A DNA stretch of 64,000 nucleotides, taken from assembly GCA_025363655.1 (NCBI GenBank), contig JANYDK010000092.1, forward strand, positions 124,001-188,000. Direction: 5' to 3'. A model generated the notes under the pieces. It saw only the letters and a list, made by a program, of their open reading frames with translations. It had not been told where the DNA came from and made no database searches. Numbering within the stretch: position 1 is the stretch's first letter; each line of letters begins with the position of its first letter. The position numbers and the translations under genes are program-made. Positions 33,611 to 35,683 of the stretch are shown here, piece after piece. The stretch is from Deltaproteobacteria bacterium (GTDB taxonomy: Bacteria; Myxococcota_A; Polyangia; Polyangiales; JADJMO01).

Positions 33611-34036
33611 TCATAGGAGGGTGTAGGTCGCGGTCGCCTTGTCACCCTTCATCCGGACCACGCCTTCCTCTTTCAACCGTCGCAGCACTTGCGCGACGCG
33701 CTGACCTTCCTCGGCAGACAGACCGGCGGAGCGGAGAACGTCGGACTTCTTCAGCGCTCCCCCGCTGCGCAATGCCGTCACGACTTTGTCGCGGAGGGCT
33801 GCCATGTGGCTCTCGGGAGCCCGCTCGCGCTTGTCTCGGGTCTTCGGCTGCGGCTTCGTCTTGGATGCGTTGGCTTTGACCTTCGGGCTCGCGGACGAGA
33901 CGACCCGCTTGCTGGGCTTGACCTTCGCGGGGGCGTCCCCGTCGCCCATCAGCTCGACCAGTTTGCGCGCGACGAGCTCGGCGAATTCGTCGCGGAGCTC
34001 GAACATCGCTTTCTCGATGAGCTGACGGAAGTTCAT
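33611..34036 (-). CDS. Small DNA-binding-like protein with Lys-rich linker
   Basis: 141 residues. The N-terminal helix (MNFRQLIEKAMFELRDEFAE, then LVARKLVELMG) is followed by a Lys/Pro/Ser/Ala linker (~38-75) resembling histone-H1-like tails. A C-terminal ~65-residue domain looks like a winged helix: DKVVTALRSGGALKKSDVLR, AGLSAEEGQRVAQVLRRLKE, then VVRMKGDKATATYTL as the wing. Nucleic-acid binding is inferred from composition and the helix-turn-helix-like spacing; no named family. Divergent from the selenoprotein gene (93 bp). Confidence 0.7.
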   Translation of the reverse strand: MNFRQLIEKAMFELRDEFAELVARKLVELMGDGDAPAKVKPSKRVVSSASPKVKANASKTKPQPKTRDKRERAPESHMAALRDKVVTALRSGGALKKSDVLRSAGLSAEEGQRVAQVLRRLKEEGVVRMKGDKATATYTLL

Positions 34037-34129
34037 GGCCGCCTGTCGGCGTAACCCTCCGCGGACGATGTGTAAAGGTCCGTGAAGCGCTTCTCAATTC
34101 GCCACCCCGATGGCATGCTGCGCGGCGTG

Positions 34130-34345
34130 ATGAACGTCGCGATCGAATACTGCGTCGCCTGAAACTACCTCCCGAGGGCCTCCAGTTTGGCGGCCGCGAT
34201 CGAGTCGGCGACGGGAATCAAGGCGCGGCTCGTCAAGGGTGGGCGCGGAGCGTTCGAGGTCACCGTCGACGGCGTCCTCGTCTTTTCGAAGCACGCATTG
34301 CACCGGTTCCCCGAGCACGCCGAGATCATCGCCAGGCTCGGGTGA
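34130..34345 (+). CDS. SelW/Rdx-family selenoprotein, Sec encoded by in-frame UGA
   Basis: A 71-residue protein with UGA at 34160-34162 read as selenocysteine (residue 11). The N-terminus reads MNVAIEYCVA-U-NYLPRASS, giving the CxxU redox motif (Cys8-Val-Ala-Sec11) after a beta strand, as in the Rdx fold of SelW. Downstream, GIKARLVKGGRGAFEVTVDG and VLVFSKHALHRFPE match the SelW pattern 'G-x-FEV-x-V-x-G-x-LV-x-SK'. Length and motif position fit SelW (70-90 residues). Without the UGA readthrough it would be a 10-codon stub. A SECIS-like hairpin lies just after the UGA (separate entry). Start: ATG 34130, or GTG one codon earlier. Thiol/selenol redox function is inferred from the family. Sec-machinery genes are not in the window. 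Confidence 0.85.
34177..34195 (+). promoter_or_regulatory. SECIS-like hairpin for the SelW-type gene
   Basis: Within the coding sequence, GGCC (34177-34180) pairs with GGCC (34192-34195), an unpaired U34181 opposes C34191, then CCA pairs with UGG, closing a three-base loop GUU. The loop G (34185) is 23 positions after the UGA's last base. Bacterial SECIS elements have a short stem, an unpaired U three pairs below the loop and a G then U in the loop, roughly 16-37 nt after the UGA. All of these are met, and the arrangement resembles the fdhF minihelix. Confidence 0.7.
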
Positions 34346-34360
34346 GCTCCCGCGTGACGC

Positions 34361-35683
34361 TCAAAGTCCGGCGCGGCTGACCACCCGAACGACCTCGCGC
34401 CGCGCGCGGGCGACGATGGCCTCTTCGTCGAGATCGAGGGAGGCGCCGTCGCGGATGCGGACCGTGCCGTCGAGCACGACGTGCCGCACGTCCGACGATC
34501 GACAAGCGTAGACGACGCGCGCCGCTGCCGACCCGCCTGGCTCGGCGTGCGGCCCGGAGAGATCGATGATCACCAGATCGGCCCGTTTTCCCGGCTCGAT
34601 CGAGCCGATTTCTTCGTCCATCCCGAGCACGCGGGCACCGTCGATGGTGGCGAGGCGGAGGGCTTCGTCGGCCGGGAGCGTGCCGGTGCCGCTGCGCATC
34701 TTCGCGAGCAGCGCCGCGTGCCTCAGCTCGACGAGCGCGTCGAGGTTGTTGTTGCACGGCGCGCCGTCGGCACCGAGACCCACCACCACGCCCGCGGCGC
34801 GGAGGGCGTGGATGCGCGCGACACCCGAACCGAGCTTGAGGTTGGCGCTCGGACAGTGGACGACGCGCGTCCCGGCCTCGGCGAGACCTCGCGCTTCGTC
34901 GTCGTCGAGTTGCACGCCGTGCGCGAGGACGGCGCGAGGACCGGTGACTCCCCAACGGGCGAGGACGGCGACGTCGTCGTCACCGTACGCCGCGCGCACC
35001 GCAGCACGCTCGTCGGCGTGCTCGGCAGCGTGGGTGTGGACGAGGAGACCACGCGCCTCGGCGAGCGCGCAGGCGTCGCGCACGAGACCCTCGCTGCACG
35101 AGAGGATGAAGCGGGGCGAGGCGGCGACCCGGATCCGCGGATGGTCGGCGTAGGCGCGCGCATGAGCATCCAACTCTTCGAGCGCACGACGCGGTTCTTC
35201 TCGAAGCCCGGGCGGAACGGAGTCGCCGACGTCCATCAACGCCTTTCCCGAGCGGGCGCGGAGACCGAAGCGATCGATCGCATCGAGCACCACGTCGTGA
35301 CCGTGGGTGGTGCCCATGTCGAGGATGGTGGTCGTCCCTCCCTTGAGCAGCTCGAGGAGACCGAGCTCGGCCGACGCGCGGAGGCTCGCCTCGTCGTGCG
35401 CGGCCTCGAGGGGCCAGATGCGCTGACGAAGCCACTGCAGAAGTGGAAGATCGTCGGCGAGGCCGCGAAAGAGCACCTGGACGAGGTGGACGTGCGCCTG
35501 GACGAATCCTGGGATGACGGCGCAGCGTGCAGCGTCGAGGACGCGACAGGGACGAGTCGCCAGTTTGCGTGCGCCCTCGCCGATGGCCACGATGCGGCCG
35601 TCGCGCACGAGGACGTCGCCGTCGACGACGCTTCCGCGAGCGTCGCAGGTGATGACCGTGCCATTCTCCACCAGCAAATCCAT
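34361..35683 (-). CDS. Amidohydrolase, 8-oxoguanine deaminase / TrzN-like family
   Basis: 440 residues from ATG 35683 (a longer frame to 35740 would overlap the region before the HEAT gene). A TIM-barrel metal hydrolase of the ATZ/TRZ type: metal-binding HVHLVQ after PGFVQA, HTHAAEHADE, LAHGVQLDDDE and GLGADGAPCNNN. The C-terminus carries the usual small beta sandwich. Such enzymes deaminate or dehalogenate heteroaromatic rings such as 8-oxoguanine, guanine or triazines; the true substrate is unknown. Convergent with the selenoprotein (15 bp). Confidence 0.9.
   Translation of the reverse strand: MDLLVENGTVITCDARGSVVDGDVLVRDGRIVAIGEGARKLATRPCRVLDAARCAVIPGFVQAHVHLVQVLFRGLADDLPLLQWLRQRIWPLEAAHDEASLRASAELGLLELLKGGTTTILDMGTTHGHDVVLDAIDRFGLRARSGKALMDVGDSVPPGLREEPRRALEELDAHARAYADHPRIRVAASPRFILSCSEGLVRDACALAEARGLLVHTHAAEHADERAAVRAAYGDDDVAVLARWGVTGPRAVLAHGVQLDDDEARGLAEAGTRVVHCPSANLKLGSGVARIHALRAAGVVVGLGADGAPCNNNLDALVELRHAALLAKMRSGTGTLPADEALRLATIDGARVLGMDEEIGSIEPGKRADLVIIDLSGPHAEPGGSAAARVVYACRSSDVRHVVLDGTVRIRDGASLDLDEEAIVARARREVVRVVSRAGL

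Follow-up and report, generated by a model that had tools for sequence, protein, structure and literature searches.

A predicted SelW-like selenoprotein gene with a conserved in-frame UGA and a covarying, SECIS-type hairpin in a Polyangiales-type genome

The small reading frame described here, encoded in the window (the whole stretch of 64,000 nucleotides of DNA that was analysed), is well supported as a real, easily overlooked gene for a selenium redox protein of the SelW family. A preliminary description had proposed a SelW/Rdx-type selenoprotein at this place, and that reading gains support from the match of the protein to Pfam Rdx, its predicted fold, the conservation of the UGA, the covariation of the hairpin that follows it and the selenocysteine (Sec) machinery of the genome, all of which were observed directly in this analysis. 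The mechanism that we regard as almost certain is the following: during translation, SelB loaded with Sec-tRNA-Sec would bind the hairpin, the UGA at 34160 would be recoded as Sec, and the product would be a thioredoxin-like protein of 71 residues, in which Cys8 and Sec11, paired in the loop that joins strand 1 to helix 1, would act as a redox site for thiol/disulfide chemistry. Insertion of Sec at codon 11 in the host is what the conserved signals and the machinery point to, and the thiol redox chemistry is what the family of the protein would lead one to expect. The coordinates of the features are collected in Table 1.

Table 1. Features of the SelW-like gene, in positions of the window
Feature	Position	Strand	Evidence
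SelW-like (Rdx family) selenoprotein coding sequence, predicted	34130..34345	+	Pfam Rdx, TIGR02174, AlphaFold/PDB matches; kept in 43 genomes of the order
Cys8 codon, CxxU partner of predicted Sec11	34151-34153	+	
In-frame UGA, codon 11, predicted Sec codon	34160-34162	+	UGA at the same codon in aligned homologues of the order and in 79/80 genome_contigs homologues
Predicted SECIS hairpin GGCCUCCA-GUU-UGGCGGCC	34177..34195	+	Codon-preserving nulls; covariation at third-position pairs 34180/34192 and 34183/34189

Gene and predicted product

The frame encodes 71 residues (MNVAIEYCVAUNYLPRASSLAAAIESATGIKARLVKGGRGAFEVTVDGVLVFSKHALHRFPEHAEIIARLG) and is terminated by a second UGA (34343-34345); its length, the UGA as codon 11, the CxxU motif and the FEVTVDG and VLVFSK segments are all as they had been described beforehand. 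With Cys substituted for Sec in the family profile scores, the protein matches Pfam Rdx (PF10262) over the whole domain (residues 2-70, E 2.8e-18, 66.3 bits against a cut-off of 22.6) and also passes TIGR02174 (58.8 bits, cut-off 34.2), which places it in the Rdx/SelW-like family above both curated cut-offs. The cut-off of the equivalog model NF041051 (SelTWH_Campy, 88 bits) is not reached by the protein, which scores 85.5 bits with Cys for Sec, and is passed by none of the 184 genomes of the order that were examined.

The structural evidence agrees with this assignment. A sequence search matched the protein to SelW-related PDB chains, and its AlphaFold model (34 relatives; mean pLDDT 95.9) has a thioredoxin-like fold with the CxxU located between strand 1 and helix 1; the best solved matches of the model are the SelW-related structures 2fa8, 2obk, 2oka, 2ojl, 2p0g and 3dex, with a TM of about 0.9.

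Conservation of the UGA codon and distribution of the gene

A SelW-like gene with one internal TGA is present in 43 of the 184 genomes of the order, which is probably Polyangiales. Among these carriers, selA was found in 39, tRNA-Sec in 37 and at least one of the two in 42, and the co-occurrence of the gene with selA and/or tRNA-Sec gives a Fisher p of 6e-25, to be taken as a guide only, since the related genomes are not independent. The single carrier with neither is G176, a 630-contig assembly that is 93% complete. tRNA-Sec model matches above the cut-off were also seen in two single-contig genomes having no SelA or SelW match (G146:C1:12600610-12600694 and G147:C1:653960-654046), and these may be misread tRNAs, or else the remnants of a Sec trait that has been lost.

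Beyond the order, the homologues collected from genome_contigs by a single-sequence scan come from Myxococcota, Acidobacteriota, Marinimicrobia, Gemmatimonadota, Planctomycetota, Desulfobulbaceae and others. The alignment of homologues that had been recommended as a check bears out the reading of codon 11 as a Sec codon at the position of the redox Cys: 79 of the 80 have UGA there and the remaining one has TGC (Cys). A plasmid search gave one Rdx match, in Thermomicrobium.

The neighbourhood of the gene is kept in four genomes of the same family and in G176, which belongs to another family, where it is flanked by an amidohydrolase gene and, on the opposite side, by a GGDEF/FHA-type gene accompanied by a small conserved one. 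A 141-aa gene lying upstream (33611-34036, minus strand) is kept beside SelW in five other genomes, at 40-46% identity. Other Rdx-like genes were observed in the order: in two same-family genomes, a second, divergent one reads FCRAUGY (L065, G051:C114:908-1081, minus strand; L066, G052:C18:61095-61271, plus strand) and is likely a second Sec-containing Rdx paralogue, of a type not found in the host genome; in L180 (G109:C9:14617-14832), which reads YSQACGY, Ser replaces the first Cys of the motif.

The hairpin following the UGA

The hairpin, reported beforehand with its GUU loop and its loop G 23 nt past the UGA, is present as claimed. It starts 14 nt past the UGA, forms 7 of its 8 possible pairs (the mismatch being U34181/C34191) and closes on a 3-nt loop (34185-34187) whose first base, the G at 34185, lies 23 nt past the A of the UGA. 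In bacterial SECIS elements the apical loop is found 16-37 nt from the UGA (PMC10778597), and the hairpin, immediately past the UGA and with a G in its loop, falls within this range. A scan of 33900-34500 against Rfam gave sub-threshold chance matches only.

Taken by itself, the hairpin of the window is modestly unusual against a codon-preserving null (P = 0.014 by number of pairs and 0.036 by energy), and it is the comparison among relatives that carries the assignment. In 35 distinct sequences of the order, 7.6 of the 8 pairs are formed, as against 5.6 (sd 0.16) under codon-preserving nulls. In 107 distinct sequences, 6.46 of the 7 inner pairs are formed; a codon-usage null gives 4.35 (sd 0.10), and a column-preserving null, in which synonymous codons were permuted within each column in 1000 runs, gives 5.81 (sd 0.04). 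The two pairs that join third codon positions are complementary in 107 of the 107 sequences (2.00 of 2), and the column-preserving null gives 1.36 of 2 (sd 0.04), with a maximum of 1.49 in 1000. The types of pair vary at both of them (CG 69, UA 21, UG 8, GC 8 and GU 1 at one; CG 82 and GC 25 at the other, n = 107 for each), counts that do not represent independent events because the sequences compared are related; despite this relatedness, the pair types recur across phyla. For example, some species combine Ala GCG with Leu CTC, and others Ala GCC with Leu CTG. Because this covariation among 107 sequences is decisive, the hairpin is assigned, on comparative grounds, as the SECIS of the gene.

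Two further comparisons carry less weight. Cys homologues form 2.3 of the 7 inner pairs (as against 6.46 in the 107 sequences), and most of them come from another subgroup, so that this contrast may serve as a control in an only supportive way. Past the hairpin, the differences among close relatives are weakly biased to the third codon position (e.g., 15, 10 and 16), and they are not used as support.

The hairpin had also been likened to the SECIS of fdhF on account of an unpaired U below the loop, and this part of the claim does not hold as the rest does: the hairpin covaries as a SECIS, while the unpaired U is incidental. Standard pairing is seen at that position in 64% of the 107 distinct sequences (U/C in 33/107) and in 91% of the 35 from the order, so that a conserved unpaired U of the fdhF type was rejected as a defining feature; below the apical loop it appears to be tolerated, not required. 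It is tempting, although we hold it as a tentative idea and rather doubt it, to suppose that the SelW SECIS of this order is for the most part a simple stem, paired throughout, that lacks a bulged U and is capped by a GUC loop, in which case SelB may follow a somewhat different recognition rule from that of E. coli, some genomes possibly having the second Sec-containing Rdx paralogue as well.

Could the frame be instead what is left of a Cys-type Rdx gene whose active-site codon has mutated to a stop, its product ending at codon 10? A UGA within an otherwise open family frame does have the look of a nonsense mutation, and the hairpin of the window taken singly is only modestly unusual. Nevertheless, a pseudogene has to be reconciled with a UGA that recurs at this codon in 43 genomes of the order and, across phyla, in 79 of 80 homologues, with an intact protein downstream of the UGA, with a covarying hairpin, and with the strong link between the gene and the Sec machinery. 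It had been dismissed beforehand as a poor alternative; we consider it extremely improbable, and the conservation of the UGA in practice refutes it.

Selenocysteine machinery of the host genome

A search for the sel genes had been proposed as a check of the selenoprotein, and the host assembly (9.0 Mb, 150 contigs, 96.2% complete) contains selB, selC and selD, together with a selA truncated at a contig end. The tRNA-Sec, with a UCA anticodon, is on contig C66, a full-length SelB (651 aa) on C28 and SelD on C90. The latter has its own in-frame UGA, within HGAGUACK, a position at which many SelD proteins have Cys; this SelD (L017, G000:C90:12973-13932) is a predicted selenoprotein too, with a hairpin-forming stretch past its UGA.

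The case of selA requires more attention. A search of the 9.0 Mb assembly with the SelA model is negative, which would favour the idea that SelA has been lost in the host, the Sec trait being in decay and the UGA now a stop. However, selA is found in all four (4/4) same-family relatives, and in one of them (G051) it adjoins a lipoprotein-like gene and aroKB. The same order is seen near the end of host contig C95, where the aroKB orthologue and the lipoprotein-like gene are followed by a 5' fragment of selA: the last 135 bases encode 42 residues with 62% identity to the SelA of G051 (E 2.6e-10). Because of this fragment in the gene order of G051, the host most likely does have selA, interrupted where the assembled contig ends. 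A loss of SelA also has to face an intact SelB, tRNA-Sec and SelD, and we consider it very improbable. A site on contig C33, beside an MFS orthologue, was considered as the location of selA and rejected, there being no selA in it; the genes beside that orthologue resemble, by eye, a type I restriction-modification system.

The same machinery bears on whether the UGA could be read as another amino acid (e.g., Trp), through a general reassignment or a suppressor. Nothing was found in favour of this beyond the need to pass the UGA in order to complete the conserved domain, and it is opposed by the UGA terminator of the gene itself, by the dedicated tRNA-Sec and SelB of the host and by the location of the site where the family has its redox Cys, the codon being TGC in one homologue; we give it next to no credence. 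Recoding of the UGA as Sec is the reading retained here.

Comparison with known systems

The kind of gene reported here is already known, the host case being a further example of the established bacterial SelW-like family, and general knowledge of selenoproteins is unchanged by it. Its interest lies in that a conserved redox gene, which ordinary gene calling would end at codon 10, is present alongside a complete Sec trait in 43/184 genomes of a myxobacterial order, and in that its relatives allow covariation in the bacterial SelW SECIS to be followed in a clean data set.

The hairpin resembles the SECIS of E. coli fdhF in its location shortly past the UGA and in its small apical loop beginning with GU. 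Unlike it, the relatives of the window gene have the bulged-U position paired in 64% of cases; the fdhF SECIS needs the bulged U, and its loop G is about one codon nearer the UGA than that of the window. Regarding the protein, the Cys-type Rdx proteins of the order (the YCTQCRWL group) and the solved Cys-type structures 2fa8, 2obk, 2oka, 2ojl and 3dex share its fold and the position of its redox motif, although they have CxxC instead of CxxU, no hairpin, and belong to a different sequence subgroup.

In the Sargasso Sea set the SelW-like family was the most abundant of the selenoprotein families (PMC1088965), and a 2006 survey counted 10 Sec sequences and found Cys relatives to be few among organisms that use Sec (PMC1794560). 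The parts of that survey consulted place SelW-like proteins in Geobacter, Desulfotalea, Clostridia and Symbiobacterium, and list other selenoproteins, SelW-like not among them, for the myxobacterium Anaeromyxobacter (PMC1794560). A search of freely available literature returned no paper on SelW in this order. The window gene differs from these bacterial selenoproteins (PMC1794560, PMC1088965) in its host lineage only, a Polyangiales-type genome, and shares with them the small Rdx protein, the CxxU, the SECIS hairpin immediately past the UGA, the G within its apical loop and the scarcity of Cys relatives. The nearest demonstrated case that we found is the SelW of Campylobacter jejuni, for which ribosome occupancy (Ribo-seq) and mass-spectrometry peptides past the Sec codon have been reported (PMC11955535). 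Although it comes from a different phylum, and the window protein is just below the NF041051 cut-off (85.5 vs 88), both would belong to the same subfamily according to that model, as small selenoproteins read through a UGA.
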